A stretch of 64,000 nucleotides of DNA from positions 249,889,252-249,953,251 of the forward strand of contig OW240912.1 in NCBI GenBank assembly GCA_933207985.1. The letters are read 5' to 3'. The notes beneath the pieces were generated by a model that was not told the origin of the DNA, ran no database searches, and saw nothing but the letters and a program-made list of their open reading frames with translations. This document shows positions 31,031-54,891 of the stretch, piece by piece. How positions within the stretch are numbered: the stretch's first letter is position 1; the number at the start of each line of letters is the position of its first letter. The position numbers and the translations under genes are program-made. This DNA is from Pelobates cultripes (lineage: Eukaryota; Chordata; Amphibia; Anura; Pelobatidae).

Positions 31031-31034
31031 TGCA

Positions 31035-31262: not shown

Positions 31263-31269
31263 TCATCCT

Positions 31270-32390: not shown

Positions 32391-32399
32391 TCATGTCTA

Positions 32400-32540
32400 G
32401 ACTCTAACCTCATTTGAGCAGGGTCCTCATTTACCTATTGTTCCTGTATCATTTTGTAATTGTCTCATTTATTGTTAAAATTGTAAAGCTCTGCAGAATA
32501 AGCAGAATAAGTTAAATAATAATAATAATAATAATAATAT
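32400..32540 (+). mobile_element. L2-type LINE 3' tail, copy 1
   Basis: TTTGAGCAGGGTCCTCATTTACC-type 3' UTR followed by an (AAT)n tail (about 32,514-32,539), as at the end of the L2 fragment at 20,775. Severely 5'-truncated. Confidence 0.6.
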
Positions 32541-33061
32541 AGTCTATAAATATGGAAATTGCATTCTCATTGCCCAGTTGAGTGTCATTATTAAAAAACA
32601 AACAGTGTGAATAAAACATTTTTTTTATGTTTGAAAATAAACAATTTTCAGACCTTCATATTAAATATGTTTGGTGATATTTTTTGTCTAGTAGTCAATA
32701 TGTTAAATAGTTAAATAGTGAGTTATGGTGTGTTGTAATATACAACTGTAGCTAAAACATTCAAGTTTTGTTTCCATATAGTTACATATTGTAGTAGTTA
32801 GATATAGACGTCTAATTTGAAGTTCATCGAGTTTAATCGTTAATTTATATTACTTTATTAAAATTGCACAAATTTATATGGCTACTCATATTTGTTAGTA
32901 AAATCACCTTTGAATGTAATAATAATTTAATTTAGGAAAATCTTCTGCAAAGGAAGACAATTATTTAAAACATTAATAGATAGGATTAAACAATTAAGGG
33001 CAAATAGAACAATACATTTGCTTGCCTCTTTGCTATTCTTCCATTTTTAATATGATCATCT

Positions 33062-33290
33062 TGTTTACCCACCAATCTTGGCATGTTTCAACAACTCTTA
33101 TCACAGATCTTTAATGGCCCCTGCAGTGCAAGCCTCATTTTGGCTTCTGTGTATGTCTTTTCATGATTGGCCAAAACCTTTGTTAACACCATGAGGGGAC
33201 ATACAAAGCCAAACATTTCAATGGGGCAATTAAATACCTATGAAAAGAGGAGTGGAAATCATGCCAAGATCAGTAGGTCAACAAGATGAT
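33062..33290. repeat. Weak foldback, copy 1
   Basis: TTGTTTACC..CCAATCTTGGCATG (about 33,061-33,084) is inverted as CATGCCAAGATCAGTAGGTCAACAA (about 33,262-33,286). Inner blocks (GGCTTCTGTGTATGTC / GACATACAAAGCC) also pair. Likely an old MITE. Confidence 0.5.
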
Positions 33291-33837
33291 AAGGTATCAC
33301 AAGTGTGATTACAGGAATAGATTATTGACTGAGGAAGCCTGTTATATTTGAGGGGAAGTGTGTTTCAAGGAATATACCTTGTTTTACTTGTTCTATTAAT
33401 TTGATTTTATATCTATCTAGTTTTATGCATATGTGGATAAATACCTGTAGCTAGTTTCCAAATAAGGATCCTGGATTTTCAATGATGTGATTCTATACTA
33501 ATAAAGAGAGGGTGTTGCAATGGTAACAAGTATTGAAGACTAATCATTAAGCCTGATCAGGGAGGCTCTAGGACACGTGAGTGGAAATTTGCTGTTGAAT
33601 TTTATTTATATAGAATCAAAACATACTACACTATATATTTATCTATTCTTATGTGTGGAAGAAAAAGAGGAGAAGGAAAGAATTGTTGAAGGGTGTTTGT
33701 CCCATATAAGATACCCCAAGGCAGAATATGCTGATCCTAACTTTAAGGCTCTGGTCCATGTGTGTTGGCACTTGTAGAGTGTTTAATAGTATGCTTATTT
33801 ATGCTTGCCACCAGACTCTCTGCACTTTTGACTGTAT

Positions 33838-33872
33838 ATTTTATATATATATTTATATATATATATATTGCA
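33838..33872. repeat. (TA)n microsatellite, copy 1
   Basis: Interrupted TA repeat, shorter than its counterpart at about 57,714-57,765, so the locus differs in length between the two copies. Confidence 0.85.
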
Positions 33873-34369
33873 ATTTTTTCCATATAGATATATGAATATA
33901 CATATGAATATATATTTTTTCCCACTTTATTTTTGCTACATCAATTGTCTCTTTTTTTGTGGCACTACAAGCGGAATTCAGAATCATTGCTCAAAACGAA
34001 CATGCTTGGCTTTTGTGCCGCTTGCTTGGTTTGTGATTTAGTTACATTTCAGCTCAGCGTTTAGGAAATGACCCTCACTGGCCTATATTTGGACAAATTG
34101 CAGTTTGGTACGAATAATAATCTCCTATCTCCAAGTCAATTTTCTTTTTTTAATTTCAAGCGAAACATATTACTTAGAAATTCTTTGTGGTCACATTATT
34201 TTTGGTTTTTGCAATTTTGATTCTAAGGTTCAGTCAAGTTTGAATTTATAAAAGATTTCATTAGGCAAGTTTGTGGTGTAGAATATGTCATCAATCATTT
34301 TTCTACATTATATTATATTTATATAGGAGGACATTGTGCTGGTATTTAAATTTTATTTCTATAACAACC

Positions 34370-34859
34370 TTAAAGGACCACTCTAGGCACCCAGACCACT
34401 TCAGCTTAATGAGGTGGTCTGGGTGCCTGGTCCAGCTAGGGTTAACCCATTTTTTCATAAACATAGGAGTTTCAGAGAAACTGCTATGTTTATGAATGGG
34501 TTAAGCCTTCCCCATTTCCTCTAGTGGCTGTCTCATTGACAGCCACTAGAGGCGCTTGCGTGCTTCTCACTGTGATTTTCACAGTGAGAGCACGCAAGCG
34601 TCCATAGGAAAGCATTATGAATGCTTTCCTATGTGACCGGCTGAATGCGCGCGCAGCTCTTGCCGCGCGTGCGCATTCAGCCGACGGGGAGGAGAAGAGG
34701 AGGATCGGAGGAGGAGAGCTCTCCGCCCCGCGCTGGAAAAAGGTAAGTTTCCCCCTTCCAGAGCCGGGCGGAGGGGGACCCTGAGGGTGGGGGCACCCTC
34801 AGGGCACTATAGTGCCAGGAAAACCAGTATGTTTTCCTGGCACTACAGTGGTCCTTTAA
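34370..34859. mobile_element. TTAA MITE present only in copy 1
   Basis: 482-bp element (34,374-34,855) with TTAA at 34,370-34,373 and 34,856-34,859. Inverted ends: AGGACCACTCTAGGCACC and its near-complement near 34,837-34,855. Internally it is a series of hairpins (about 34,393-34,420, 34,520-34,553, 34,554-34,602, 34,639-34,683). Copy 2 has the empty site with one TTAA at 58,269-58,272, which proves both the insertion and the target duplication. Confidence 0.95.
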
Positions 34860-35058
34860 CAACGTAGACTTTTCAATGATATATATGACTTACACATTGT
34901 TTTTCACAGAGGCTATCTAGTTTCAATGTGTATATTGTATCTTGCAATTATATCCTATTATTTACAGTGGTAGAAATTATGTTTTGTATTTTAGTTTTCA
35001 GCATTGTTTATGGACCCCTAAAGCACCACAGGAGGTTCCATGCCAAAAACAAATTTCT

Positions 35059-35138
35059 TTAACCTCTTAAGGACCAAACTTCTAGAATAAAAGGGAATCA
35101 TGACATGCCACACATGTCATGTGTCCTTAAGGGGTTAA
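35059..35138. mobile_element. 72-bp TTAA mini-element, copy 1
   Basis: Element 35,063-35,134 between TTAA sites, ends CCTCTTAAGGAC and GTCCTTAAGGGG. Same length as 11,460-11,531 and related to it in inverted orientation. Confidence 0.75.
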
Positions 35139-35139
35139 A

Positions 35140-38100
35140 GCTCAACAATGTCCTGTAGTTTTGGTGCAGGTAAGGTTAAATAACCTGCTCGGACATGGGA
35201 GACCCAGGTACTAGTAGATAACTGCGGCTCCCATAAGTCAGCACAGGCCAGATTTAGTGGCCTCAAGGAAACAGATTACACATAACAAGCTCTTAAAATA
35301 GACATTTTCACATCTCACTAAAAAAGTGTGACCAAACTTCTGTTGGTTTTCAGCAACATCTCCATAATATCATCTCTGACATGACAATTTACTGGTGACA
35401 GCTGAACCCTATATACCTGATCACCACGTATAAGTGGTGTCAGATCACTATGTATGAAAAGATGCACAGAGAGTCTTCAGAAGCCCTGTGACAGGCTCTG
35501 TGAACTCAATTGAATAGGGAGAGAAACACTGTTAGTGCTGTAAATCGTGTGTGTTTATATTATAGAGCATAGTCTTTACTCAGTTAGCCTAATAATATAT
35601 AACTAATAGTCTTTACTGAGTTAATACTTTTACTGAGTTAGCATTATCATAAACAATAGTCTTTACTGAGTTAGCATAAAATATATTCAAAACACGTTAA
35701 CTTATTTTCCTATAAATATAGATTAACATTTATATAAAATATGGAATGCAAAGCTAACACGTAAAAGTCAGATAGGACAAGACTTTTTTTAGATTGCAGT
35801 CCAGCGATACATAAAAATATTTATTTTTTCTTTAAAAATAAAAAAAAGATTTATTTTTGTTGTGCAAGTAAGTACATTACATACGGGTTTGCGATGCCAC
35901 AACAGCAAGAGCAAAGTTTCAGCAGTAATTATATTTATACAGAGTCTTGGCTTGTAAAGATTTTGCACATTTTTGTATGAGAAAAATAATAAAGTATACT
36001 GATAATAAACGATTCATGGACAATCCCCCGTCAGACAGACAATGGGAGAACATAGTGTAAACGTGTTGGACTTTTGTCTGTGGGGCAATTATCTGCCGTA
36101 ATAACGTGCCACATTATAAACTAAGGGGTAAATACCTGTTGGCACTCATGGTATATTTTAATTTTTCATCAATTTGTTCATTCTTTACATCCATATTGGG
36201 ATGATATACAATTTTACATATATTGCAATATTGGAATCCCTTAAATTACAATCTTTCAGAGAGAGAGATTAGGACAGAAACATAATATTTTTGTCACAAC
36301 CAATACCGTTTACAAAACTAGATTAAAAAGTGCCATGATAATTAATATATTTAAGGAACCTGATAAGATTTTTTTTAAATACAGCATACTAAAATGTCAT
36401 AAGAATGTAAAAATCATGTGGGAATAATTCCTGTATGTTGTAAATACAGTTGTCTGCATGACCCTAGAATCTGTGTATTGCAAACATCTACAAAGAGTCT
36501 TTGTGTTATGCCCAGGGACCATGTCTCTACATCTTTGCATGCTAGACAAAGAAGATGTATGAAGCCATATCAGAAAATTTGTTTCAGTGGAAGGTGAAGA
36601 ACAGGACAGGAGCATGGGGTTGAAATGGGGGGGGATTTTAGACTAAATTGTACAGCATAGTCTTTACTATTAACCATCTATATATAGGGACGGGTAGAAG
36701 CAGTATGTTTTGATTTAGAATGATTTCATAGAAAATATAATTTATTAAAAGCACAGGTCACAATATATCAAATACAATAGCAATAATGTTCCAGATAATG
36801 TAAACATTTACAAGCTAGGGAAACAAGCAGTTTGTATTAGTATTTGTTTGCAATCATTTAGCAAATCCTATGAATATCACATAACATTATGGCACATTGA
36901 CAATTTATTAATATGATGAGAAAGACTTAAAAAATAGCCAATCAACCCTGTTTTTCAGCTTAAATGTAAATAGTATTATTTATGTAACTTTTATTAATTG
37001 TGCTTTAAAAGAGGCAAACTGACATGATAAACTTATGCTGCTTAGTGTACTGGGGATGTAATGGGTTCATTAGTGAAGGTGACCTCTGGAAAAGCCATTG
37101 AAATGGAAAACACTAAACACATGGTATGTTTCTGTGTGTGCATGTGTAACTGGAAGATTTGGAGGTATTTGTAGCTTTTTAGCATAAGTTTAACAACACT
37201 TTTTACTTTTTATTTATAATGTGAGTTTTATTATAGGTCACGGGTTAAAATGTCCGTATATGTTTTGGATGCAACTGTATTTGCTGATCACTATATATGA
37301 CAGACATATCATGTATAAGACTATCTTTTTTCTAAAACAATGTCTAAAATTGCACAGAATCTAAGTTTAAATTGCTCTGATGCATTTCAAGGTGCCACGG
37401 CCCACACACATACCTGGCCTCCCTCCCGCTGATCCCCTTCTGAATGCTGTGGATTAAGAGGTCCCTATATGTGTAGGATCTGCAGCAGACATCAGCACTT
37501 ACCACCAACAGAGCTCCAGAGACATGCCACACCATAAAAGGAACAGCCATTTTAAGGTTTGTTCCACCTCAGGTATAGGTCTTGCTTCCTGATTTATATT
37601 TATAGGGGAAGAAATGTGGATCAGGGAGCAGAGGGAATACTACTGTGCTCTCCCAGCATGCCCTCACATCACCTGCTGCATTGTGGGAGCTGTAGTCTCA
37701 CAGAATGCACTATAGAGCCATTAACTTCACATAGTACCGTAGCAAGTGTTTTGTTCTCCTCAGAAGTCACCTCTAAAATATCAAAGTTGTTTTATTTGAT
37801 GTTTAAAATAATGATTTCTTAATTTTGGGTTTAAAAAATAGGGGTTGTCTTATACACAGAAAAATATGGCATATTCTTAGTCAATTTTAACCTACATGTA
37901 TCTCTCCTCATAGAATAATGCTACTTTGCTAGGGTAGTGAGTATTAGGTTTTCTTTGCTAAATTCTGTCTGTGGTAGAAGAACCTTGTTGCCATGTTACC
38001 ATGATGATATGATGCCTTGTATAATAATATTTTATTTAGATATTTGTTAAATTGTATTTAGATGTTTGTTAATTTAAAAAAACCTTTTGCTTCCCATGTT

Positions 38101-38155
38101 TAAGTTGTCCTTGTGGTGAAGTTATGGTAGTGTTAAGAGTGGATTTTACAGACAT
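35140..38155. other. No gene recognised (copy 1)
   Basis: AT-rich DNA. A recurring AGTCTTTACTGAGTTAG phrase appears about four times in 35,570-35,670. GC-richer patches at 37,390-37,700 contain repeat-like text (CTGCATTGTGGGAGCTGTAG) rather than a convincing exon. Copy 2 counterpart 58,550-61,558. Confidence 0.45.
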
Positions 38156-38159
38156 GTCT

Positions 38160-38375
38160 GTTGTGGCCCTGTTTGTGACATAAAACACTCATGGTACCTC
38201 TTAGGTTAACACTGTTGTGGCCCTTTTTGTGACACAAGACACTCGTGGTACCTTTATAGTTAACACTGTTGTGGCTCTGCTTGTGACACAAAACACTCAT
38301 AGTACCTTTTTAGTTAACACTGTTGTGCCCCTGTTTATGACACAAAACACTTGTGGTACCTTTATAGTTAACAAT
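38160..38375. repeat. Four-copy 54-bp tandem repeat, copy 1
   Basis: Units start GTTGTGG/GTTGTGC at 38,160, 38,214, 38,268 and 38,322, exactly 54 bp apart. Each contains TGTGACA(C/T)AA..ACACT and GGTACCT..GTTAAC with a few substitutions. Not a multiple of a coding motif with an open frame; non-coding minisatellite. Confidence 0.9.
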
Positions 38376-39304
38376 CTACCAAAGTTGCTAGCATGAACAC
38401 AAATAATGAAAACACTGATATATCAATGTAGAGAATATGTCTTCAAATGAAATAACCTCAGCAACTTATGACCCCGGGTGAATCATGAAGCACTGCCATT
38501 TACTTTTTTTGACTAGATGTGTGTGTCATCTCGACAGAACATGATAGTCATATCCGTCCTTCAGAAAAGACTGCTTATTTTTAGAAGACAAATGCAAAAG
38601 CATCAGTTTTCAATTATATGACACACATCATCCCTTTCTCCAACTCATAATGGATAGGATTGTCAATAATTATGCCATTGTGTGTTGCATTTAGAAACTG
38701 CACTAAAAAAAAGAATAGAATAACCCAGCTGGATTCCGTCTTTGAATTCTTTCTTATAATGATATACTTTTTTTTTAAAGTTTAGTTTACTTGTCAATTT
38801 TTTAAAGTAATTAGACAAACAGCCTCTTTACCCTTTGGTCCTTAATTTCATTTTTCATAAGTATTTTTCAAATGTTATATTTTAACTTATGTTAAGTATG
38901 ATAAAGTATTTAAAATATCTGCATAAACTCCCACAATTTCTATTAAAATTGTATGTGCACAGACAGTGAAAATAGCTTCATTTGGAACATTTAAAGCACA
39001 ATTTAATATCCCGTGGAAATATTCTGCAGTACAGATAGTCTTTCTTATGGCTTCATTTTGCAGACACAAGCCATGATGGACAACTGCAGCCCCGGGAGAA
39101 AATCTATTTTAGTAATGTCCATATGTCAAACACTACTCAATTTGATTAGAAAAATGGCTGCTTTCTATTTCTTTTGTGCTAGAAAAATCTTTTGTTCTAA
39201 ATGCTTTTTTTCTTTTACATGCCATATGAATTCATTTTTAAATATACTATTTCAGCTGTGTTTTTTCTAAAACAGTTGGACATCTTTTTAAAGACTTGAT
39301 TCAC

Positions 39305-39703
39305 TTAAAGGGACACTATAGACACCAAATCAACTTCAGCTTAATGAAGCAGTTTTGGTTTACAAATCATGCCCCTGCAGCCTCACTACTTAACTCTCTG
39401 CTGTTTAAAAGATAAATCACTTTGTGTATACAGCCCTAGTCACCCCTTCATGCATGTGATTTATACAGCATTCCTAACCACTTCCTGTAAAGAATGTTTG
39501 AATATCTGCAAAGCTATATTTTTAATAAACTGCATACAATTATTAATTGATATGAAGTATATTAACAAAGCTTCCTAAAATGAACCTAAGTGCATTTTCA
39601 TACATGTTTTACAAGTTTTAAATTACTCAAAAGTGAGAATTTTCTATCTTTCCACTCTAAAGAGAAGTTTAAATATTTTAATATCATGTTATCTTGTTGT
39701 CAT
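39305..39703. mobile_element. TTAA MITE left part, copy 1
   Basis: TTAA at 39,305-39,308, then AGGGACACTATAGACACC and internal sequence like the complete 10,910-11,455 MITE (CTTAATGAAGCAGTTTTGGT, ATGCCCCTGCAGCCT). It runs into a hairpin element; no right terminus is found. Confidence 0.65.
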
Positions 39704-39892
39704 GGTAAGGCTCTGAAAATACAGAAAATCAACACAGGGTAATACGTTTTGACACTAAGTAATGAAAGTGAGAGACTTAGAAAAACTCACAATCTGTAGA
39801 GCATTTCTGAGTTTGCTCTAAACTATGAAGGCAATCAGATGTGTGAATAGCTGTACTTGGTCCCCTCAGGAGGTGTTTGCAGTCCTCTGTGC
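39704..39892. repeat. Left arm of long foldback, cut by contig end
   Basis: Identical to the left arm of the foldback at 63,107-63,626. The contig stops 13 bases into the loop, followed by Ns. Confidence 0.9.
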
Positions 39893-39992
39893 NNNNNNNN
39901 NNNNNNNNNNNNNNNNNNNNNNNNNNNNNNNNNNNNNNNNNNNNNNNNNNNNNNNNNNNNNNNNNNNNNNNNNNNNNNNNNNNNNNNNNNNN
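39893..39992. other. Assembly gap, 100 N
   Basis: Exactly 100 Ns, the conventional placeholder for a gap of unknown size. The left flank ends in a hairpin loop; the right flank starts inside a retrotransposon gag. Translations across it are meaningless. Confidence 1.
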
Positions 39993-39993
39993 G

Positions 39994-41103
39994 CACCAGC
40001 TACAACGAGCTGCCAAAGGGTGGCTGGAGGCCGCCCAAGTTGATACGTTGGAGGGTCTGTTCCAGCTAATGGTACTGGAACAATTCTTCAATGGCGTCCC
40101 GATCTACCTACAAAACTGGATCCGGGACAGGAAACCACACACCCTGCAGGAAGCGGCTAATATGGCAGACGATTTCCAGGACAATCGGAGAGATCAACCC
40201 ATCCCAACCCGAGCCACCATCCCCCCTACAATGGCCAGCCCTCCAGGGGGCCCCGCAACGTACCAGCGGCCAGGGGTAAACCAGAATTCCTACCCCCCCA
40301 GATATTCAGCACGTCCACCAATCCGGTGCCATACCTGCAACCAACAGGGGCACATCCAGAGAGACTGCCCACGGAACCGGCCTCGACCTAGCTGGAATAA
40401 CGCCACCCCGAGCAACCGTGCCGCAGTCCACTGCCTACAGGCCGAATCCGACCAAAATCTGGAGTTGGGGACGACCCGGGAGGAACCTCTCGGTACTCTA
40501 CACGAGGTGAACCCTATCCAGGCCGCCTCCGATAACCGCCAAGGGCACCGCCAGGAAGTACACATGGAAGGGAGGAAAGTACAAGGACTTCGTGACTCGG
40601 GAGCCACCCTACCTCTAGTACGCAGTCATCTGGTACCAAAGCCCAAGCTCACGGGGGACTGTGTGGCTGTGCGGGTGGCTGGGGGAGCCATTTACAAAGT
40701 ACCCACGGCCAAGGTGCACTTGAATTGGGGAGCGGGGCACGGGAATGTATACGTGGGGATGATGCAAGACTTGCCAGCGGATGTGATTTTGGGCAACGAT
40801 TTGGGGGAGCTGACTTCGGCTTTTGTTCCCCAACCCACCGTACAAGAAGCATACCCGGTTGTGACCCGGCAACAGGCCCGCACCACGGCCCCATTCGAAC
40901 ACTCTGAGGCTCAGGTAAGCAATGACCCTCCCCTACCCCCTACCCTGCCCTGGGCCAATTCCCTAGAGTTCGGGGCCGAAGTAGCCCTAGACCCTTCGTT
41001 ACAGGTGTACAAAGACCGCCTAGATAAAAATCAAGCTGGGTTAGAGGGGGAAAGATATATCTGGGACAAGGGGCTACTATATCGGCACACGCGGAGAAGG
41101 TAG
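39994..41103 (+). CDS. Gag C-terminus and protease of Gmr1-like element
   Basis: The 5' end is lost in the gap; the frame runs open to a TAG at 41,101-41,103. It begins with a capsid C-terminal region (about 39,994-40,200) containing LMVLEQFFNGVPIYLQNWIR and EAANMADDF, whose pattern matches the SCAN domain of vertebrate zinc-finger proteins. A proline-rich linker follows. Next is a CCHC zinc knuckle, CHTCNQQGHIQRDC (40,327-40,368), for RNA packaging. An aspartic protease comes after that, with catalytic DSGA (40,594-40,605) and an ILGNDLG flap-side motif (about 40,783-40,803). The last residues (ERYIWDKGLLYRH) are the usual lead-in to the integrase zinc-binding domain, so the stop falls between protease and integrase. 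Integrase continues in the -1 frame. Confidence 0.88.
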   Translation, partial: HQLQRAAKGWLEAAQVDTLEGLFQLMVLEQFFNGVPIYLQNWIRDRKPHTLQEAANMADDFQDNRRDQPIPTRATIPPTMASPPGGPATYQRPGVNQNSYPPRYSARPPIRCHTCNQQGHIQRDCPRNRPRPSWNNATPSNRAAVHCLQAESDQNLELGTTREEPLGTLHEVNPIQAASDNRQGHRQEVHMEGRKVQGLRDSGATLPLVRSHLVPKPKLTGDCVAVRVAGGAIYKVPTAKVHLNWGAGHGNVYVGMMQDLPADVILGNDLGELTSAFVPQPTVQEAYPVVTRQQARTTAPFEHSEAQVSNDPPLPPTLPWANSLEFGAEVALDPSLQVYKDRLDKNQAGLEGERYIWDKGLLYRHTRRR

Positions 41104-43727
41104 TGTCCGGGTCGATACCGTTGCCCATTAAACAGCTAATAGTGCCTCGAAAGTATAGGTTAGAGCTATTACGCATAGCCCATGATATCCCCCTGTCTGG
41201 ACACCTAGGCATCAGTCGGACCAAGCACCGGCTGACCCAAGATTTCTTTTGGCCAGGTATTTCCCAGGATATTAAGCGGTATTGTCAGACCTGCGATACC
41301 TGCCAAAGGGTAGGCAAGAGGGGGGACAGATACAAAGCCCGACTACGGTCTCTGCCCATCATTGAAGAACCATTCAGTAGGGTGGCAGTAGACATTATAG
41401 GTCCCCTCGCAAAACCCAGCCCCTCCGGCAAGAAGTATGTCCTAACCGTGGTGGACTACGCCACCCGGTACCCCGAGGCAGTGGCCCTAACTAACGTACA
41501 CGCAGAAACGGTAGCCGAGGCCCTGATGAGGATATTCACCCGGGTAGGATTTCCCCGGGAGATTATCTCCGATAGAGGCACCCAGTTTACTGCGGACGTG
41601 ACCCATCAGCTCTGGAAAATATGTGGGATACAACAAATCCTCAACTCCCCATATCACCCCCAGTCCAATGGGCTCTGTGAACGATTTAACGGAACCCTGA
41701 AACAAATGATCCGCACGCTCATGGACACCCAAAAGGACTGGGAGCGGTTCTTACCCCACCTACTGTTCGCGTATCGAGAAGTGCCACAAGAATCCACCGG
41801 ATTCTCTCCGTTCGAATTATTATTCGGGAGGAGAGTGAGGGGACCCCTGGACTTGATACGGGAACACTGGGAGGGAGACGAAACCGCTAATGGCACCCCT
41901 ATCTTACCATATGTGCTCGAGTTCCGGGAACGCCTGGAGAGGCTAACCCAGACCGTCCGAGACAATCTCCAGGTAGCGCAACAGCGACAGCGCCGATGGT
42001 ATGATAAGGGAGCCAGGGACCACAGCTTCCAGGTGGGGCAGAAAGTTCTAATCCTGCGACCCGTCCACAAAGATAAGCTGCAGGCTTCCTGGCAGGGCCC
42101 ATACAAAGTGGTGGAACAGATCTGTGACACCACCTATGTGATCGGCCCGGTTACCGGCGTGGGAGGCAAACGCATGCTCCATGTGAACATGCTCAAGCCG
42201 TACCACGAACGGACGGAGGAAGCCACCGCAATCTGTGCCCCTGCCACGGAAGATTTTGATAGCCTACCCCTACCCGATCTCCTAGACCAAGAGGGCCAGA
42301 GCGGAGATCTGGGAGAGGTACAGTTAGGAGAAAGATTAAATACCCAAGAACGGGCCCAGGTACAAAAGTTGCTTCGGGAAAAGAAGGCCACATTTTCCAA
42401 TTTACCCGGCTATACCCCGTTGGCTACCCATAAGGTAGAAACGTTAGATTCGACCCCCTTGCGCCAACCCCCCTACCGCACTCCAGAAGCAGTCAAGGAG
42501 AATATGCGCAAGGAAATTGAGGAGATGATCCAGCTAGGAGTAATAGAGCACTCGGACAGCCCCTGGGCCTCCCCGGTAGTACTGGTGCCGAAACGGGACG
42601 AGACGACCCGTTTCTGCGTAGACTACCGACGGCTCAACGATAAAACGACCTCTGACGCATATCCCATGCCCCGAATAGACGAACTCCTCGACAAAATGGC
42701 CAGGGGTCAGTACCTAACCACTATAGACTTGTGCAAGGGGTACTGGCAGATTCCCTTAGCAGACGACGCCATCCCTAAGTCGGCTTTTGTCACCCCGTTT
42801 GGCCTGTATCAGTTTAAGGTCATGCCATTCGGGATGAAAAACGCTCCAGCTACCTTCCAGAGAATGGTGGACAGACTGTTAGATGGGTTCCAGGAGTATG
42901 CCTGCGCGTATCTAGATGATATCGCCATATTCAGCCACTCCTGGCATGAACATCTGGTTCACATAGGAGCCATTCTAGACCGAATCCGAGAGGCCGGACT
43001 GACCCTAAAACCCAGCAAATGCCATATCGGTATGGCGGAAGTCCAGTATCTGGGACACCGGGTAGGGAGTGGGCAACAGAAACCCGAACCTGCTAAAATA
43101 GAGGCAGTCACCCAATGGCCTACCCCTCGCACCAAGACCCAAGTGCTCGCCTTTTTAGGGACCGCCGGGTACTACCGGAAGTTTGTGGCCAACTATAGCG
43201 CCCTCGCCAAACCCCTCACAGACCTGACCCGCAAGAACCTCCCTAAGTTAGTAGTCTGGGCCCCAGAGTGTGAGCAGGCGTTCCAACAGCTCAAGACGGC
43301 GCTGGTTAACTCTCCTGTACTTTCTGCTCCTGATCCAACTAAACGTTTTCTCGTCCACACAGACGCTTCTATGTTTGGATTGGGAGCAGTACTGAGCCAA
43401 GTTGGACCCGATGGCGGCGAGCACCCCGTAGCTTATCTAAGCCGAAAACTTTTACCCAGGGAAGTAAGCTACGCCACCATTGAAAAGGAGTGCCTGGCTG
43501 TGGTGTGGGCCCTCAAGAAGTTGCAACCCTACTTATACGGGCAACCCTTCACTTTACTCACGGATCACAACCCGTTGGTGTGGCTGAACAGGGTGTCCGG
43601 AGACAATGCCAGGCTGCTGCGCTGGGGTTTGGCGCTGCAGCCTTTTGACTTTACTATCCACTACCGCCCTGGGAAGCAGAATGGCAACGCCGACGGGTTG
43701 TCTAGACAAACCGACTTGGAGCCGTGA
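41103..43727 (+). CDS. Pol: integrase-RT-RNase H, inverted order
   Basis: An 874-residue open frame, also open upstream to 41,028 and overlapping gag-pro; there is no convincing ATG, so 41,103 is a formal start. Integrase: zinc-binding H27, H34, C64, C67; core D97, D157, E193 (35 residues between the last two, as in DD35E); a GPY/F-like module SWQGPYKVVEQ at 329-339. RT: VDYRRLN at 506-512, catalytic D542 in TTIDLCKGYWQ, MPFGMKNAPATFQR and YLDD at 603-606. RNase H: D754, E794/E796, D821, D864. All key residues are present. A domain order of IN before RT is opposite to standard Ty3/gypsy. It would copy the RNA genome and insert the cDNA. No envelope-like ORF follows. Confidence 0.93.
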   Translation: MSGSIPLPIKQLIVPRKYRLELLRIAHDIPLSGHLGISRTKHRLTQDFFWPGISQDIKRYCQTCDTCQRVGKRGDRYKARLRSLPIIEEPFSRVAVDIIGPLAKPSPSGKKYVLTVVDYATRYPEAVALTNVHAETVAEALMRIFTRVGFPREIISDRGTQFTADVTHQLWKICGIQQILNSPYHPQSNGLCERFNGTLKQMIRTLMDTQKDWERFLPHLLFAYREVPQESTGFSPFELLFGRRVRGPLDLIREHWEGDETANGTPILPYVLEFRERLERLTQTVRDNLQVAQQRQRRWYDKGARDHSFQVGQKVLILRPVHKDKLQASWQGPYKVVEQICDTTYVIGPVTGVGGKRMLHVNMLKPYHERTEEATAICAPATEDFDSLPLPDLLDQEGQSGDLGEVQLGERLNTQERAQVQKLLREKKATFSNLPGYTPLATHKVETLDSTPLRQPPYRTPEAVKENMRKEIEEMIQLGVIEHSDSPWASPVVLVPKRDETTRFCVDYRRLNDKTTSDAYPMPRIDELLDKMARGQYLTTIDLCKGYWQIPLADDAIPKSAFVTPFGLYQFKVMPFGMKNAPATFQRMVDRLLDGFQEYACAYLDDIAIFSHSWHEHLVHIGAILDRIREAGLTLKPSKCHIGMAEVQYLGHRVGSGQQKPEPAKIEAVTQWPTPRTKTQVLAFLGTAGYYRKFVANYSALAKPLTDLTRKNLPKLVVWAPECEQAFQQLKTALVNSPVLSAPDPTKRFLVHTDASMFGLGAVLSQVGPDGGEHPVAYLSRKLLPREVSYATIEKECLAVVWALKKLQPYLYGQPFTLLTDHNPLVWLNRVSGDNARLLRWGLALQPFDFTIHYRPGKQNGNADGLSRQTDLEP

Positions 43728-43791
43728 TTCGTGAGTACTCCTCCGGACATCCCCAAGCCGATCCGTTGGGATCAGACTGTGTATGCTGGCT

Positions 43792-43808
43792 TGGTTCTGG
43801 GGGAGCAT
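43792..43808 (+). promoter_or_regulatory. Polypurine tract (plus-strand primer)
   Basis: GGGGGAG-rich stretch immediately 5' of the LTR's TGTGG, in the position where plus-strand DNA synthesis is primed in LTR retrotransposons. It is imperfect, with pyrimidines next to the LTR. Confidence 0.5.
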
Positions 43809-44152
43809 TGTGGCAAACCTAGCCACTCGGACTATAACTGGACACTATGCCTTTAAGGGTTGCCTATAGGTCTGGAGAGAGATGCATTGTACCTGTATGT
43901 GCCTGTTTCATGTGTTTCCTGCATTGCCTGTACTATCTGTTCCGCCGAATGCAAATGGCGGTTTGTATGGGGATTCCCGTTCGTTTCGCGAACGGCATTT
44001 TGGAGGCCCGTTCGTGAAACGAATACGATACCCCCTAATAGCCCACACACTTAGAGGCGTGTGGCGCTAGTTAACCGATTGCAACATTGTTGCAATCGGT
44101 TATTAGAGGCTCTCCTGGGTGGCCGTCGTTCGACTACCGACCATGCGGCGAG

Positions 44153-44164
44153 CGGCCATCTTGG
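44153..44164 (+). promoter_or_regulatory. YY1-like site in LTR
   Basis: CGGCCATCTTGG matches the known CCATCTT core of YY1 binding sites, which are common in retroelement promoters. Motif match only. Confidence 0.4.
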
Positions 44165-44640
44165 ATCCTTGGTTCATCAGCGGGTTCGTGTCGTCGAACG
44201 CATAGCATTCCCTACAGTTATTCGACGGCACGAACACCGTTAAGCCTCCAGGACGTTCGGGAGTTTCAGGACCAGGTTCATTAAAGACAATCGGTTCTTT
44301 TCATGTGTTTTGAGAGAAAGTTGTTTTCTGTGCGGCGTTCGGTTATTTTAGCTGGGATCTGAGCGGCAATCTCACGAATGATGCGCCCAGACCCCAGCTA
44401 TCTACCGAACGTCCATTCGTGTAAATCCACCGTATATTGTACCAACTGTGGATTTTTGTGTGAATTGCCGGTTCTGCTGCACGAGGGGATAATCCCCTTA
44501 ACGGTGCATTCTGGGAGGATGATCCCTCTCGTGCAGCGGTGCCTGATGGGAGAAATATGTAGTACAGTAAGTCCCCCATGTAGTCCCCTCCTGTACAACC
44601 CCTGTAATGTCTGTTTGGAAACCCCTTGCATGGGGAATTG

Positions 44641-44648
44641 CATAAATA
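44641..44648 (+). promoter_or_regulatory. TATA-like box in LTR
   Basis: CATAAATA in the last fifth of the LTR, a plausible core promoter position; it could drive the element and, from this 3' LTR, flanking DNA. Confidence 0.4.
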
Positions 44649-44660
44649 CTGTGACCTGTG

Positions 44661-44666
44661 ATTAAA
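44661..44666 (+). terminator. Polyadenylation signal ATTAAA in LTR
   Basis: Common variant hexamer 13 bases after the TATA-like box. Close spacing leaves the exact R region uncertain. Confidence 0.4.
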
Positions 44667-44823
44667 ACCTCAGTTGACTCCCAGCCTATGTGTCGTCTAG
44701 TTCTTGGGAAGGAAGGGTTACTGCAGTGCTGTTTGGATTATTGTATGCTGATTCCCTGGATTATCCTTTGTTGTTCCTGTTACCCAGCGGAGATATCGTG
44801 GATCATACTGCCTCTCCGCTACA

Positions 44824-45464
44824 AAGGACTTGTCTGTAATTGTCTAACACATTGACCCTCTTCAATCTGGATTCTTCATCCTCCATTCTACTCAGACTAC
44901 TCTGACTAAAGTAATGAATGTCCTAATTGTGGCTATATCCAAAGGCCACTACTCCATACTAATTCTTCCATAACTCTCTGCTGCTTTTGACACTGGTGAT
45001 CATGTACTCCATTTGCAAACTCTGCACACCCTTGGGCTTCATGTCACAGTCCTATCACATCCTATTTCTCTCAATGATCCTTAACAGTCTCTTTTTCTGG
45101 TAATACCTCCTCCCCTCATCTTGTATTGCTTGTAGTCCTCCAAGGCTTTGTCCTCGGGCTACCACCTGTATGATGATGACACCGAGATATACCTCATCTC
45201 CCCTAATCTTTCTCCAACAGCTTTATATCGAGTCTCCAGTTTCTTCTATCCAATCTCTACTACTGGATGTCTACTCTAGGCTTTACTCTCGCCTTCCAGT
45301 TCTGCTACTTTTCAACCCTGTCAATTCCTATTCCTCACACTGTATTGTGTTTTATACCTCATCTAATCGAAAATTGTAAGCTCATTTGTGCAGGATCCTC
45401 ATCAACCTATTGTTCATGTGAAATAAGTTAGCACTATATAAATGCCAATAATATTAATAATAAT
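44824..45464 (+). mobile_element. L2-like LINE fragment, copy 2 (3' part)
   Basis: Same L2 remnant as 20,962-21,602; the upstream part is separated by the LTR retrotransposon and is not seen here. This is the filled-site side of the insertion. Confidence 0.8.
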
Positions 45465-48042
45465 AGTTACAGCTGTGTTTGTATGTCACAAAATTTTGTG
45501 AAAACAATCACAATAATCTTATTATGAATGTGATATTAAATCCTAATTTTTCAAAAAGTCAGAAAGGTTTTCAAATATGAAAGAGGCTGATATTTTCTCC
45601 CAATATAGCAAACACAAATAAACGTATTCCTTTTTTTCCTCCTACAATATGTCCTTTTATCTTCAGACATTACAAAGGCTGTGGTTTAAGTCAATCAATT
45701 CCTCAAGTAACTTCCAGGAAAATCAGTATGAAGTGACAAATTCACTGTTAGGGCTTATTGTCCTTTAAGTGGGCCACCAAGTTTTCCTCAAGCAAGTGAT
45801 TCATTATCTATTAATGCATTGCTGCGACATATGGCATGCTTAACTCCGCTGGGTAGCAAATTCTCTCTCTTGGCTTAAGTTTAGAAAGGCAGTTTTGCAT
45901 TTGCAGCTTAAGTTTTTCTTTAAAACATTTGGCAGATTGGCAGAAATGTCTACAGCTTTAGTGAAATAGGGCTGAGCAGATCTACAGTGTGAACAATGCA
46001 TATACTGGTTTCCATACTGCCTTCTTTATTATTTAGCAGTAAAGTCCGATAATTCATCTCATAGATTAAAAAGGTAACATATGATGATATATGACATGTA
46101 ATTTGATGAATGCTATAAGAACACACAAGTCTACTCTTTATCAGACAACTAGTGCAATAGATTTAGCATTTTGTCTTTATTTTAACATGAGAGTGGTGTG
46201 GGAGAAGGGATTGGAAGGAGCATGTCAGCAATTAAAACACTATTCTTAGTTGGAGGAACCCATTAAAAGTAAGTCTAGCCCTTTTAGAGAGCCCTGGAGC
46301 CGTTAGATTTTCTTGCAAACCTGCCTTATCTTTTTTTTTTACCCAAGCCATTTATTTATCAACTAATGTTCCTATCTTCATGTCAATAAATAGGAAATAT
46401 AGAACCAAAACAATAAATGGAATAATAAACATTGTATTTTTTGAGTAAGAACCTATTTCATATATTATACTTATGTAGATATATATTCAAACATCTTCAT
46501 GGTCTTATCATGTTCAAACTTTCATTAAACAATTTCACTAGTTGTTGAAATAGAACAGGAAATAAATACATAATTTAAAATGTATATGAAATAGCTCCAA
46601 AAAATGCATAACACCATAGATTTTGCTGGGGAGAGGCTTTGATGGCTAAAGTCCCAGATGTGAGACTCTTTCACCCCTGATTGCTATAGTTGGTATAGGG
46701 CAGTCACCTTTTATAAAAAGAAAGATCAATAGTATTGCCAGTCTACTTATGGGGAGGGAATGGTACCCCTCATGCTGACTGTCAGGAGGGGGTGCTGGAG
46801 AACAAAACTTCGATGTACACCTTGCTATTTGTAATGTATTGTGGTGGCCTTGCATTTAATACTTGGCTATGTGCTTGTTTATAGTTAGATTTTCTTTGAG
46901 ATACTAGAAAGGATCAGTAGCATCAAGTTCTTTATGTATAGAGATCTGGGAACCCAGAAAAGTTGGGATATGTGAAGACATCCAGACCTCCTTGTTAGTG
47001 GAAGCGTCATCGATTTTTCCATTGGGTGCACCAGGTGTTTCTGGAATCCCTACAGAGTGCCATTTCTTACATTGCATGCACATAATTAAACAGCACAACC
47101 CTAATTCTCATATATTTAAAATTCATTTATAAAAAACTATTCAAGAAAAACATTACAGATAAATGTTGTAACACTGCCAGGCTACACTAGATTCTTAATG
47201 AAAAACAGGACAGGATTCTTACTTGATTTAGAAGATAAAAAGTTCAGCAGTGCAAAGTCTTTTTAAGAAATGTACTGCACCATGACCACAGACGTCCATT
47301 GTATTAAAACACTTTGAAAATGTACCAATTTCTCGTCTTCTTGCTTTTTCCATACAGAAATATTTTTTTAGAAATAGTTTATGACATGTACTAGGTACAC
47401 TGTAAGGTCACTATATTTTATCACAAAAAAAGTTTTACTTAGAGAAAAGTAAGTGTTCTTTTAGTAATAGCTGTGAAATATATTTGGAAGCTCAACTGTC
47501 AGTGGAATTTAGAAACCCCAGAGGGCATAGAGGATGGCATAAAAAAGATCACTGTCATCTTAGAGAAGAGCAGAAGTATCTGTCGACCAGTAAAGAAATG
47601 TGATGCTTCTATAAGACATGCCATAGATGAAAAGCTACAGGTGACTTCTTGTCTGAAAAGGGCAGACATTGTAAAATGTATGATTTAAATGAACATTCTT
47701 ACTGTCTTTTATCTTCTGTTCATTAAGTGAAAGGATTAAATATCTGAGTAAAATATTCGTCAATGCATTTTAAAGTTTTAAAGCAGCTGCCAATAGTTCT
47801 GGTCACATTATATTAATAGTCACAACTACAAAAAAAATTGTGGATTCAGTATATAGGTCAATTTAAATAACCAAAATACAATGGAGCTTATTCACACAGC
47901 AGCCATTTGTCAACTCACCACTATAAACTTCAGTCTAGGTCAAGTATTGCCTCTTACTTGACCTTATGCTCTTGTTTCCTCTATATATCTAGATTTATTT
48001 GTGGGCATATGGAAAATGGAGAATCCCTGAAAGATTATACGC
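45465..48042. other. No gene recognised (copy 2)
   Basis: Counterpart of 21,603-24,180, with only a few substitutions visible (for example near 46,443, 46,912 and 47,127). Confidence 0.4.
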
Positions 48043-48046
48043 ATTT

Positions 48047-48662
48047 CAAAATTAGGCGAACTGAAGATCTCTGCTAGATAAGGAGCCACGATTAATGAAA
48101 AAGTCCATGTCTTCCCAAATTAGCTGTATCTTTAATTGATGCAGACTGAACTGCATTAAGGTAGAATCTAGGTAGATATCTAGCAAAAATAGACTAGTAG
48201 TGGGACACATAGTCTTGTCCTGTGAGAGTGGAACATCTAGTATAGAGAACAAAGCAGTGGTGCTGTTAATGCTATGGGGTATGAACTTACCCTTCCACTG
48301 TTAGAAAGTCCTCTAGGTAATGGATCTCAACCAGGCATCTGCAAACATTAAAGAGGTGCCAACAGTGGGTTTGAGCAAAAACATCAAATAACGTAGGGAT
48401 GATTTTGTCCCTGAAAGTAAGTCTTTTAGCAAAATAGTATTGCCCCTCCATTTACTACAATGTAGGTGCCACAAAGAAAGGACAAATAGAAAGCAATTTA
48501 AAGTAGTTGGAAATATCGGTTTTGGTCTTCAAAATTGCTTGTATGGCATTGTCTACTGTAGCATATTGGAGTAAAAATTGTTCATATGGTATTAAGGAAT
48601 TAAGGCTTGGTTTACCTATGGAATGAGGAGCCTAGAGGTTGATTATCTTTTTTTATTGAACT
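48047..48662 (-). mobile_element. Decayed DIRS-like RT, copy 2
   Basis: Same remnant as 24,185-24,800, with the same stops and shifts, so the decay predates the duplication or allele split. Confidence 0.65.
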
Positions 48663-48763
48663 TACCAGTGGCTATGCCAATAGGGTAAGTACTTCAACAC
48701 AAAAAAGTGACTGAAAGGTCCCAGCATGAAACCATTGACCCATGCCTACTGTGAGTGGGTTGT

Positions 48764-49141
48764 AGAATACAGACAGGGCCAGTGCAAGGATTTATGCCAC
48801 CCTAGGCAAAGTTCAATTTTGCCGCCCCCTCATGTCACTCATTCACTGACAGACACACACCTGCAGACACAAACACTCCCTGACAGACACACAAACACAC
48901 GCTCACTGATACACACACACACACACACACACACAGAAACTCACTGACAGACCTACACTCATTTACTGACAGACACACACAGACACTCATTGACAGACAC
49001 ACAGACAGACACTCACTGACATACATACACTCACTCACTGACAGATACACATACATACAGACAGACAGACAGACAGACGCTCACTGACATACATTCATTC
49101 GCTCACTGACAGACACACACACACACACACACACACACATC
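48764..49141. repeat. Dispersed-repeat tail with CA/CAGA array, copy 2
   Basis: Counterpart of 24,902-25,279, including the same compound CA and CAGA runs. Confidence 0.85.
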
Positions 49142-49146
49142 AAATC

Positions 49147-51402
49147 TCAAATTTCAGGCAATTGAACAAATATCTCTCAATTCTAGAAAGGGGAATTTTA
49201 ATCTCAAATTATTAAAACAAGAGTCAAGGTGGATACATACCTTTAGAACACTGACCCCTAGGGGTCTTAATGAAGAATTTAATTTCACCCCTTTCATCCA
49301 TTGATAGAGATTTTGATCATTATCTACAAAAACCAAGCTCTGATTTATAAATAATTTCTTTAAGTATTTCCAACTTGATAGACAAATTGGTCCCTTTCAT
49401 TAATAGATTCCAATTATTCAAGAGTTATTAAAAGAATAAACGTGCATAGGGGTTTAGACATACATACTGAAGGTAAAGCATGTTCGTGTTGAAAATCATT
49501 AACACATTCCAGCCCCTACTTAAACAACTTACTCTTTCTTTATAAATAAATCTTGATTAAGAAGATTTTTTTATTATGAAAGAACTTTAAACATTTGTAT
49601 TTATTAATTTAATTGAGACGGTCCAAGTATATTTGATACATAAATAACATGCTATTAAGCCACATTAGGTTATTATCAGAGACTGAAATCTCGATATAAA
49701 ATTCTAGTGCCTGTCATTAACGGCAAAGTATGATGGAAGTGTTAGAAATCAACTAGTTGCCCACTGTAGTATTATCTAGAGTTGGTTAACATTGAATCCG
49801 GGAAATTAAAACGAACATTGTTAGATAATGTAGGCATAATATAAACCTGGGGACGTGACTGATAAACCAGCCCAATAGAATATCATTTTGAAATTCCTGA
49901 GAAAATGTGCAGTATCCCCAGGAATAAATTGGACTGTATTTGTATAGCTCACAATCCTTAAATTATATTAACAATAGATGGCATATTGGACAAAGTTCAG
50001 TTTTTTTGCCATGAGTATTGACCCCAGGAAAGGTAAAACATTGATTTATAAACTTCCAAAAGGGTGATTATTATGAGAAATAATACAATTTATAACAATC
50101 TTTCTTTGAAGCTTTTAATAATTTTGCACAATACAATAATAGATCTTTTCCTTATTTATTCATATTGTTTTTAAATAACAATTTTCTGATTAGTTCAGCG
50201 ATCAAAATATAAAGGGTTAATAAACCCGTTCTTAATTTAACAATTACGTCAGTTTGCAATAGATGAGTATCTTCTCTTTCATTGGTTAATTTAAAAATAA
50301 CGGTCACCAATAGTAATAGGGTATCACCCTTAAAAGACCGGGAGGCAAAGGACCCCGGTTTCCTTCTGATGAGCTGATAAGCGAAACGCGCGTCAGGGAT
50401 ATGTAGGGTGGCGCAGACTTTGATGAAAAACCAAAGATAGTATCTGTATGCCGAGTAGCTCTAGACTTTGACAATATTATTTCTTCGTAATATAGAGAGA
50501 ATCTACGTACCAGTGTTTGAGAATTGTAGGGGGGCGTCAACATAGACGAAATAACCCTAAGATAGCACCTCTATGCCGAGCAGATCTAGATTCGGAAATG
50601 CAATTAGAGAGACGATCTATCTTTCTTTAACAGCTTTGCTGTATTAGTTTTTTGTCGTGGGATTTGATGGGACAGGCTAGACAGCCATTTGATTATAAAT
50701 ACCGCCCTACAGGTTGAACTAAGGGGATTACGGTCTATTACTGTGCCCTCTTTTTTCTCTTCCCACGTCCAATAGTAAACATCACTATACAAGCAGCTAG
50801 GCTGTTTAATCAAATTGTATCCACGGTTTAGAAATACTGTTACAATCAGGATAACTTCGTTAACAGTAATTAGCAACAATGTTATATTAGGCACCGAGGA
50901 AGATCAGTTCAAAGAGTAGCTACTTTTACGTATAGGCATATGAGTATCTAGTAATCTACTTTACCAGGAGTTGAGGTTTAATTCATCCAAAATTGGAGTG
51001 CCAATAATTCAGATTATTTCTTGGTAAATAAATAACAGTACTGTCTGGGTACACCCTAGAATTGTGTTATTAACAGTTTAGTTTTTTATGACAATTTATT
51101 TTGTAGGATTTCACTAAATTAGACTAATACATTTTAGAGTGGGTATTTTTCCCTCTAGTGAAATCACCATTTTTGCGTTAATTTAGTTATTTAAATTTAG
51201 ATGTGGTGTATTAACACGTGTTTAAAACAAGAGTGTGTGTAGTGCCCTTATGATTAAGGGACTTTTTATTTGATTTATTAAAAGTGACGTTTTAATTTAT
51301 TTGTGCTCCATTGGTATTAATATTTACCAGTACGGGAATCTCCAACTTTTCTTTTTTCTTTTTGTCAATTTATAAGGGGTTAACCCCCATGGAGGTTCCA
51401 GT
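49147..51402 (+). mobile_element. Penelope-like element, 3' part, copy 2
   Basis: Counterpart of 25,285-27,545 with the endonuclease tail, ribozyme and terminal units. Differs by a 6-bp deletion near 50,912 and a few substitutions (for example near 50,012). Confidence 0.7.
50359..50402 (+). ncRNA. Hammerhead ribozyme (type I), copy 2
   Basis: Identical core to 26,497-26,540: CTGATGA at 50,366-50,372, stem II, GAAA, minimal stem III and GTC at 50,392-50,394. Confidence 0.8.
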
Positions 51403-53116
51403 AGTCTAAGGCTCCTTTCTTTCTTTTTTCATTCTTTTAAATCAAGGAATATCTGCTGTTTAACACTTCTTTACATTAATGATTAATTTCGTTTTTCTGT
51501 TTGGCGGCCATAATGCATTGACTAATTTAGCCTATTAGGTTGATTAAAAGACTTAAATTTCTTACAGTCCTCATTGTAAGCTACAGTTCTTTCTGTCAAT
51601 TATTTACAAGTATACAGCTATTTCTTTTGAATTTGCTGTTCAAAAGTGCATGTGTCAAGGCAAATGTCACTATAATATTATAATAATAAAATGTTGCCTT
51701 GTCCATTATTTCAGAAGAAGATGTAAACCCATTTTAGCTGTTACCAATACATTTTGAGTATAGCTTAATAACCCATTTTAAACAATCAGGCAGCTTTCAA
51801 AGCCAAATACAAATACAGTGTAAAGACTATTTAACACTACTTAAATGTTGAATATGTTATTTGTATGATTTGATATGCTAAAGTTATTTTTTTTCTCTTT
51901 GTTTTTCTCAGTTCATGATGTTCTATTTTATTCGGCTCCCAAAAATCTGTTATGTGCATCACCTGAAATATCGAAACAAAATAATATCATATTATTTTCA
52001 GAAATATCCCACTAGCATATCTAGAGTGTAATGGGTTGAATTCCTTATATTTCTGCCACTATTTATTCCACCAAAAATGCATTATTTATTTCTAATTATT
52101 ATTAATATTATTATTATTATTATTATTATTTTATAGATCTAATCTAGACACATTAAACTGGGAACTATCTTTTATATAGATAAATGTGCAAATAAATTCA
52201 AAACCATATTCTATTCTGCAGTTTATTATATATACAGGGTTATTTACTAACGTAAGAATTCAAAGTAAATTCAAACAGAATTTAAAATTTAATATAGACT
52301 AGCTGACTTTTCCAGTTCAGTTATTTCAAGTCAATTTGAATTCACCTTGAACTCTCAAATCTGATTGTTTGGGGTGCCGCAGCTCTAAATACACAATGTT
52401 ATTGAGCCAAAATGCAACGGAACACACAGTTCTGGCTATATTTGGTATTTAATTTTAAGTATATTTCTTGTCCTGTCTGTTTTCCTTGTGCTGAACATAA
52501 ATAGCTTAAATGTTTTCATGCAAAGGTGGAATATGGTTTGATATCTTTATAAATAAAGTGAATAAATATTTTCTGTGAATTGAAAAGCTACTACACTGAG
52601 CATTCCAGTGGCTTTCAAAAGGGGCTGTTTGGAAAAGTTGTTAAATGACATGAGTTGTGTTTTAGTTGATTAATTTCAAATCAGTATTCCCTTTGTTCCC
52701 ATATTTTATTCACTTGGCTGCTAGTAGCTTGTAAATTGAGTGCATTTGTGTGCAGTAAAATGTTCAGACACAGGAATCTGAAAGAAATATAATTTAATAT
52801 CACTGGAATACATTTCCTAATGCATGCACATTTAATACACATCTCCCTCTGCTTAATGCCATTAGAGCATTCTCGTATGATCAAATGACCTTAGGATAAA
52901 AATATGCCAGCAACTATTAAATAATGATTAAACTAGCATCATAAAATTTATATGCATGCTTTGTTAAGTGATAGGGCAGTTATTTGGCTCAGCATGAAAA
53001 TAAACTGCATTTTTAAGTGGGATTGTTAAAATATTTGGCTAAAGCGTCAGTATTACATTGAAATGTAATGTAAAATAGCTTTATGGTTTATTTTGTTTAT
53101 GATAATTGATCTATAA
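51403..53116. other. No gene recognised; (ATT)n at 52,097-52,131
   Basis: Counterpart of 27,546-29,260. Confidence 0.45.
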
Positions 53117-53120
53117 CTAG

Positions 53121-54887: not shown

Positions 54888-54891
54888 TGCA

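Follow-up and report, generated by a model that had tools for sequence, protein, structure and literature searches.

A Gmr1-like Ty3/gypsy retrotransposon with a SCAN-type Gag at a probably heterozygous insertion site in Pelobates cultripes

The reordered pol of the Gmr1-like group of retrotransposons, including Gmr1 of cod, was reportedly described by Goodwin and Poulter in 2002. As in the element analyzed here, the domains of the cod Gmr1-like group are of the gypsy type and the integrase (IN) lies upstream of the reverse transcriptase (RT); the present copy is likened to that group by order and domains but, unlike it, is truncated at its 5′ end by an assembly gap and broken in frame. A SCAN-type Gag is frequent, though not universal, in Gmr1-like elements.

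Published reports state that Silurana (Xenopus) and other frogs have Gmr1-like elements, which are transcribed and number about 200 copies in the genome of Silurana (PMC4131045); infer young insertions and possible Gmr1 activity for the Gmr elements of Tetraodontiformes (PMC11117352); and derive the SCAN domain of vertebrate zinc-finger factors from the Gag of Gmr1-like elements (PMC3424704, PMC4592553). The Tetraodontiformes elements belong to the same group in a fish host and were dated by the insertion age of LTR-bearing copies, whereas a single LTR is present here. In addition, the SCAN domain of the present element still resides within Gag, in contrast to the transcription-factor SCAN domain of zinc-finger factors.

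The 64-kb stretch of Pelobates cultripes DNA analyzed here (the window; Table 1) very probably contains the 3′ portion of an LTR retrotransposon with a SCAN-type Gag, belonging to the Gmr1-like Ty3/gypsy elements, at a locus whose two copies are haplotypes, the insertion being heterozygous (probability roughly 0.83).

Table 1. Features of the locus, in window coordinates
Feature	Position	Strand	Evidence
Left locus copy without element, up to gap	20962..39892	+	self-comparison of window
Empty target site, left locus copy	20961..20962		copy-versus-copy comparison
Assembly gap, 100 N	39893..39992		N-run scan of window
SCAN-type C-terminal capsid domain of Gag, N-terminal side incomplete	39997..40194	+	Pfam PF02023 7.1e-12, 3lhr 5.9e-6
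CCHC zinc knuckle of Gag	40324..40371	+	Pfam PF00098 5.1e-5
Probable aspartic protease, DSGA motif	40555..40803	+	Pfam RVP 0.022 (below cut-off), motif seen in frame
Overlap of Gag-PR frame and pol frame; coding frame switches	41028..41103	+	stop-to-stop frames
Integrase	41103..42290	+	Pfam, solved relatives, residue positions
Reverse transcriptase and RNase H	42291..43724	+	Pfam, solved relatives, residue positions
Probable polypurine tract adjoining LTR	43799..43808	+	read by eye, inferred
3′ LTR, 1015 bp, TG...CA	43809..44823	+	empty-site comparison (3′ end), TG beside purine run (5′ end)
AAGGA, predicted target-site duplication	44824..44828	+	inferred; first bases common with empty site
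Right locus copy, from first base past LTR	44824..63295	+	self-comparison of window

Two locus copies and an empty target site

The initial annotation had placed the element at 39993–44823. The right boundary stands, with the LTR terminus at 44823 and flanking sequence resuming at the next base, but 39993 is merely the edge of the gap, which is the sole N run within the window. The 5′ LTR, the primer-binding site, and the N-terminal portion of Gag lie outside the window, the 5′ part of the element having been lost at the gap.

Absent from that annotation is a head-to-tail repeat in the same orientation, in which 44824–63295 repeats 20962–39892. The match begins at 20962/44824, the first base past the LTR-final TACA, with no common bases before this point and no mismatches over the next 300. 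Pieces of the LTR and of the internal element gave only chance-level matches (E of 0.66 or worse) against the left contig, and the left copy is an undisturbed target, free of LTR or other element sequence. The 3′ end of the LTR is fixed by this empty site, and its 5′ end, in a single LTR, rests on the TG beside the purine run. The 5′ partner of the predicted AAGGA duplication falls outside the window.

The copies differ by 106 substitutions over 18,396 aligned bases (0.58%), distributed unevenly: the first three 2-kb stretches contain 2, 2, and 1, later stretches contain 30 in 1470 and 35 in 1984 bases, and the last 3007 bases compared contain none. Judged from these sequences, the two copies are most likely unmerged haplotypes, one of which carries the element; the assembler would have set both haplotypes of one diploid animal end to end across the gap. 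A real tandem segmental duplication of ∼18–19 kb, with the element inserted in or bordering the second copy, would also place the copies head to tail in one orientation, and gene conversion between duplicates could likewise produce uneven divergence. Such a duplication is nevertheless unlikely, given that the left copy stops at 39892, where the gap begins, while the right contig starts inside the element; that a mosaic divergence of 0 to 2% fits recombining alleles; that the left edge lacks the LTR expected from recombination between two elements; and that a TTAA-flanked insert of 482 bp is found in the left copy only. If the copies are haplotypes, the insertion would therefore be heterozygous and younger than the haplotype split.

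Because the other, nearly identical copy of the locus lacks the element at precisely the point of insertion, the element likely jumped recently. Its RNA was likely packaged in Gag particles and then copied into DNA, and the DNA copy was likely inserted by the element's own integrase. For recent movement, the element-free copy is a stronger argument than the intact motifs: the proposal that the family is currently or recently active is supported by the element-free copy at 20962, but it is not implied by the intact motifs, because this copy is 5′-truncated in the assembly and frame-broken. Alone, the element is one more member of its group, and the connection to SCAN, like the young Gmr insertions of fish, has already been published. 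Finding the site both empty and filled side by side documents movement directly and offers a target for genotyping a frog Gmr1-like family.

Coding regions and the frame break

The upstream frame (39994–41100), which differs from the pol frame, comprises the SCAN, zinc knuckle, and protease matches. The SCAN match covers profile positions 25–89 of 90, and 3lhr, matched by the Gag piece, is the solved SCAN domain of Zinc finger protein 24.

A single open frame (41103–43724, 874 residues) encodes integrase, RT, and RNase H in this order, all of the Ty3/gypsy type. Pfam places Integrase_H2C2 (2.1e-22) at 41142–41318 and the rve core (8.9e-15) at 41367–41660, with D97 and D157 inside the latter and E193 just beyond it. 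A GPY/F-type C-terminal integrase module follows from 42096 (GPY from residue 332), and SH3_Tf2-1 and Integrase_p58_C, each at ∼1e-4, are below the Pfam cut-off. RVT_1 (1.6e-34) is located at 42585–43064, 3′ of the integrase in the same frame, with YLDD from residue 603, and RNase H at 43332–43646 (RT_RNaseH_2, 1.4e-39). Both the order of the gypsy-type domains and the positions of D97, D157, E193, GPY, and YLDD given in the initial annotation were confirmed. The best solved relative of the integrase piece is Ty3 (7q5b). For the RT piece, it is 4ol8 (5.4e-87), labelled RT/RNase H and itself a Ty3 enzyme, with Ty3 7q5b second (1.6e-86). Integrase, positioned between the protease (PR) and RT, would be released by the protease. 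Scans of the window with Rfam at the gathering score and with ARAGORN for tRNAs returned no matches.

The coding frame changes near 41,100, where the stop-to-stop frames 39847–41103 and 41028–43727 meet; this point marks the N-terminal limit of the integrase rather than a gag/pol border. The earlier description of one frame offset only is accurate for the part of the element present; the copy is frame-broken. This break would disable the P. cultripes copy, unless it is a sequencing error. The presence of just one visible offset could instead reflect a programmed frameshift in a working element rather than damage, a reading that we consider highly improbable. Relatives, among them P0005, P0006, P0020, and P0022, read Gag-PR-IN-RT continuously as a single protein, although some continuous relatives are gene models that could mask a break. 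Moreover, a gag/pol shift would be unusual where the break sits, past the protease and at the boundary of the integrase.

Domain order and phylogeny of the relatives

Relatives were taken from the best 120 of 2752 and the best 120 of 7901 matches, together 204 proteins, and conventional controls from the best 120 of 7814 matches, yielding 118 further proteins (P0205–P0322). In a strict profile count, which kept a protein if each of the two core profiles was present to 80% or more, 112 of the 204 listed relatives could be counted (92 were left out, one core wanting), and integrase is first in all 112. The conventional Ty3/gypsy elements of frogs and fish, some from the same host genera (Rana, Bufo, and Pseudophryne), have the same domains but differ in that integrase is last in 85/85 controls with both cores (33 of the 118 were left out, one core wanting). 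Counting by best blastp match over the 204, integrase precedes RT in 167, RT precedes integrase in 2, and only one domain is seen in 35. The two exceptions are P0168, which reads RT-RNase H, then Gag, IN, and an RT start, resembling a fusion of two tandem copies, and P0129, a conventional element in which pieces of RT are repeated; neither holds both cores in the strict count. Under a second rule, requiring enough of both cores, integrase is first in 137/137, with P0168 counted as IN-first through its second RT piece and P0129 failing the rule.

Separate RT and IN trees were built from 64 rows (including 43 of the 112 proteins with integrase first and 19 of the 85 with integrase last) and, more carefully, from 39 rows (26 IN-first and 12 IN-last proteins picked by hand, without the long rows Ty3, P0113, P0083, and P0226); the contrast is one conventional clade, plus Ty3 in the 64-row trees only. 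In the 64-row trees, the IN-first clade has SH-aLRT support of 98 (RT) and 94 (IN, not starred), with long-branch warnings for P0113 with P0083 in the RT tree and for Ty3 in the IN tree, and the window element is nested in the same 11, 18, and 23 rows in both. In the 39-row trees, the IN-first rows constitute one side of a branch supported at 100/100 for both RT and IN, and the 8-row set holding the window element is supported at 100/99 (RT) and 99/96 (IN). Conventional elements form a separate clade in both trees, and RT and IN do not group with unrelated elements, the outcome that the initial annotation had named as refuting its reading.

The Gmr1-like placement made there is thus supported: integrase is upstream of RT in pol, not after RNase H as in conventional Ty3/gypsy elements; RT, RNase H, and integrase are all of the Ty3/gypsy type; Gag is of the SCAN type; and RT and IN each fall within the IN-first clade in congruent trees. 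By eye, PF02023 was seen in none of the best 120 of 7814 matches listed in the conventional search. As predicted from sequence, the element is supported as a further member of the known Gmr1-like group, a membership resting on order and domains. A viral-contig scan for RT relatives matched 26 stretches, of which 0 were confirmed.

The IN-first order is unlike that of the conventional elements compared, and a gap adjoins the element, but the reading that two gypsy elements were joined, as a chimera or by the assembly, is rejected as having next to no probability, because IN and RT share a single 874-residue frame that runs without interruption and at a distance from the gap, the order is common to all 112 countable relatives, and the RT and IN trees give the same frog subclade. 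A Ty1/copia identity, similarly negligible, is suggested by the order PR-IN-RT-RH and rejected because the domains are not of the copia type: Pfam gives RVT_1 and gypsy-type modules, and a copia RT model is absent from its matches up to E 0.1; Ty3 7q5b is first among solved relatives for IN and second for RT.

The IN-first order probably goes back to the group's ancestor rather than having arisen in the P. cultripes copy. The group had been called rare and known from deuterostomes, a description that is out of date: the matches listed here include IN-first proteins annotated from a scallop and from sponges, and published work reports the group in crustaceans (PMC3587641) and an annelid (PMC8220671). 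The sponge-annotated IN-first proteins share a clade with the frog ones in both the RT and IN trees, and a single old origin is therefore testable. A tentative wider reading, which we hold to be somewhat less than an even chance, is that a very young, heterozygous insertion of a live Gmr1-like family lies beside its empty allele and that the IN-first order arose once, either dating back to when sponges diverged from the other animals or having spread among them sideways.

Among the matches listed, the nearest named relatives of the element are from frogs, and the frog subclade to which it belongs is not that of the Silurana (Xenopus) Gmr1-like elements. Within the 11-row frog set, it pairs with P0005 in the RT tree (88), and in the IN tree it lies beside P0006 in a position that is not resolved. 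The RT of the element is 83.5% identical to that of P0005 and 67.9% identical to that of P0020 (Xenopus tropicalis).

Domain architecture and integrase-first order

The Gmr1-like Ty3/gypsy element is a real and correctly read feature of a kind that is already known. Its 874-residue open frame comprises, in order of Pfam matches, Integrase_H2C2 and rve followed by RVT_1 and RNase H, and the residues named in the initial annotation are found at their positions: D97, D157, E193, GPY from 332, and YLDD from 603. The SCAN domain of the upstream Gag piece is also matched by the solved SCAN domain of Zinc finger protein 24. The assembly gap at the left end of the element leaves the 5' LTR, the primer-binding site, and N-terminal Gag out of view.

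Features of the element, the two copies of its locus, and their surroundings
Feature	Position	Description
Sleeping Beauty-type transposase HTH frame	8429-8866	minus strand; PF25787, 3.1e-18
Left copy	20962-39892	without the element
133-residue frame	29261-29662, 53117-53518	present in both copies
482-bp insert	34374-34855	left copy only; TTAA on both flanks
Inverted repeat, left contig end	39704-39878	one arm
Assembly gap	39893-39992	100 N; sole gap in the window
Gag-protease piece	39994-41100	369 residues, frame other than that of pol; SCAN, zinc knuckle, aspartic protease match below Pfam threshold
pol frame	41103-43724	874 residues
Purine-rich run		between pol and LTR
LTR 3' of pol	43809-44823	opens TG at 43809, closes CA at 44823
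Right copy	44824-63295
Inverted repeat, right contig	63107-63281, 63442-63626	both arms, 93% identical

Relatives were gathered by searches with two halves of the element (the best 120 of 2752 and the best 120 of 7901 matches; 204 proteins), and domain order was counted using profiles for the integrase (IN) and reverse transcriptase (RT) cores, with at least 80% of each core required. Among these best-matching proteins, IN is ahead of RT in 112 of the 112 that hold both cores, whereas IN is last in 85 of 85 such controls among the 118 new proteins in the best 120 of 7814 matches to a conventional frog element. The IN-before-RT order proposed from the window is real and shared by these relatives. 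The element is less surprising than was first judged. One predicted protein from Oryzias melastigma (P0168) runs from RT-RNase H into Gag, integrase, and the beginning of RT, as would result from annotating a tandem pair of IN-first copies as a single gene.

RT and IN trees and host range

Quick trees of 64 proteins, built separately for RT and IN, both place the window element inside identical nested sets of 11, 18, and 23 proteins, the named members of which are frogs (11 and 18) or frogs and turtles (23). In each tree, a single branch, with support of 98 (RT) and 94 (IN), separates the IN-first group from the other proteins. Within the 11-protein set, the RT tree joins the window element to the relative P0005 (88), and the IN tree leaves its place open. 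Long-branch warnings were raised for yeast Ty3 (IN) and for P0113 with P0083 (RT). In careful trees of 39 hand-picked proteins, with long-branch members removed, the split between IN-first and IN-last proteins has 100/100 support for RT and IN alike, and an 8-protein set containing the window element has 100/99 (RT) and 99/96 (IN). RT and IN, checked for grouping with unrelated elements, fall in the same clade, and this agreement, together with the order count, leads us to reject a chimeric element. Because the trees set the IN-first group against just one conventional clade and Ty3, they fit a single origin of the IN-first order but do not prove it.

Among the matches listed, frogs (Pelobates, Rana, Bufo, Leptobrachium, Xenopus, and others) account for the top-ranked named relatives, followed by turtles and echinoderms. 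These matches also include IN-first proteins with both cores in sponge-named records from Amphimedon (P0101) and Halichondria (P0163), in P0091 (Em0002g1039a), which we take to be from the sponge Ephydatia, and in the scallop Pecten (P0113). Published reports place the Gmr1 group in crustaceans (PMC3587641) and an annelid (PMC8220671) and list Gmr1 as one of the clades occurring in several phyla (PMC8556966). With members annotated from sponges and a scallop and reported from crustaceans and an annelid, the deuterostome range originally assigned is too narrow. Five Gmr1-like relatives (P0001, P0003, P0013, P0054, and P0057) from Rana temporaria, Pelobates fuscus, Bufo gargarizans, and Bufo bufo, hosts that span three frog families, share 95.8-99.3% identity over the RT core and 98.3-99.1% over the IN core, for which either horizontal transfer or contamination is a candidate explanation.

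State of the copy and proposed life cycle

A stop at 41103 closes the Gag-protease frame; the open stretch of the pol frame reaches back to 41028. Since relatives cross the same place in one continuous protein, the window copy evidently carries a frame break at the integrase edge, by mutation or sequencing error. Given this break and the missing 5' part, the copy cannot be called active; its family may be. For frogs, approximately 200 Gmr1-like copies are reported in Silurana, along with transcripts, and over half of Gmr elements are found to carry SCAN (PMC4131045). Young Gmr insertions are inferred in pufferfish and kin (PMC11117352), and the origin of the vertebrate SCAN domain from Gmr1-like Gag has been reviewed (PMC3424704 and PMC4592553).

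Transcription would proceed from the LTR, as in other LTR retrotransposons, followed by formation of Gag particles with a SCAN-type capsid domain and by protease processing, in which IN, being placed ahead of RT, would need to be released by cleavage from its place between protease and RT. Reverse transcription and then integration would make a short target duplication, predicted to be AAGGA; the element junction is seen in the window on the 3' side only.

A second, empty copy of the locus

The left and right copies are near-identical, head-to-tail stretches separated by the gap and the element. The left copy ends at the base directly before the gap, and the first base of the right copy directly follows the LTR. 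From this junction, the copies share 0 bases backwards and 300 bases forwards without mismatch, and their comparison reveals no LTR in the left copy at the equivalent site. They differ by 106 substitutions in 18,396 aligned bases (0.58%), unevenly distributed (5 in the first 6000 bases, 65 in 3454 further on, and 0 in the last 3007), with 18 alignment gaps, the largest of 486 bases. Most likely, the copies represent one locus in two haplotypes, with the element in one: recombining haplotypes are expected to diverge in such a mosaic, and the end of the left copy at the gap matches a common assembly fault, in which overlapping contigs are placed one after the other with 100 N between them. The inverted repeat at the left contig end may have caused the assembly break at 39892.

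Because clean excision does not occur in LTR elements, the empty state is older than the filled state. If the copies are alleles, the differences in the 6000 bases beside the insertion, at an assumed mutation rate of order 1e-9 per site per year, would date the haplotype split to roughly 0.4 million years ago, which would also be the upper age limit of the insertion. The empty copy argues for recent movement more firmly than do the intact motifs from which current or recent activity was initially proposed; recent movement is thereby strengthened, but activity of the window copy itself is not upheld.

Pfam gives no match to the 133-residue frame at E values up to 0.01; by eye, we take it to resemble a LINE reverse transcriptase tail. 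The 482-bp insert carries terminal inverted repeats (AGGACCACT/AGTGGTCCT) and has the appearance of a miniature element targeting TTAA, which likewise differs between the copies; its predicted fold is a series of linked hairpins (z-score -23.4; 0 of 100 shuffles equally stable).
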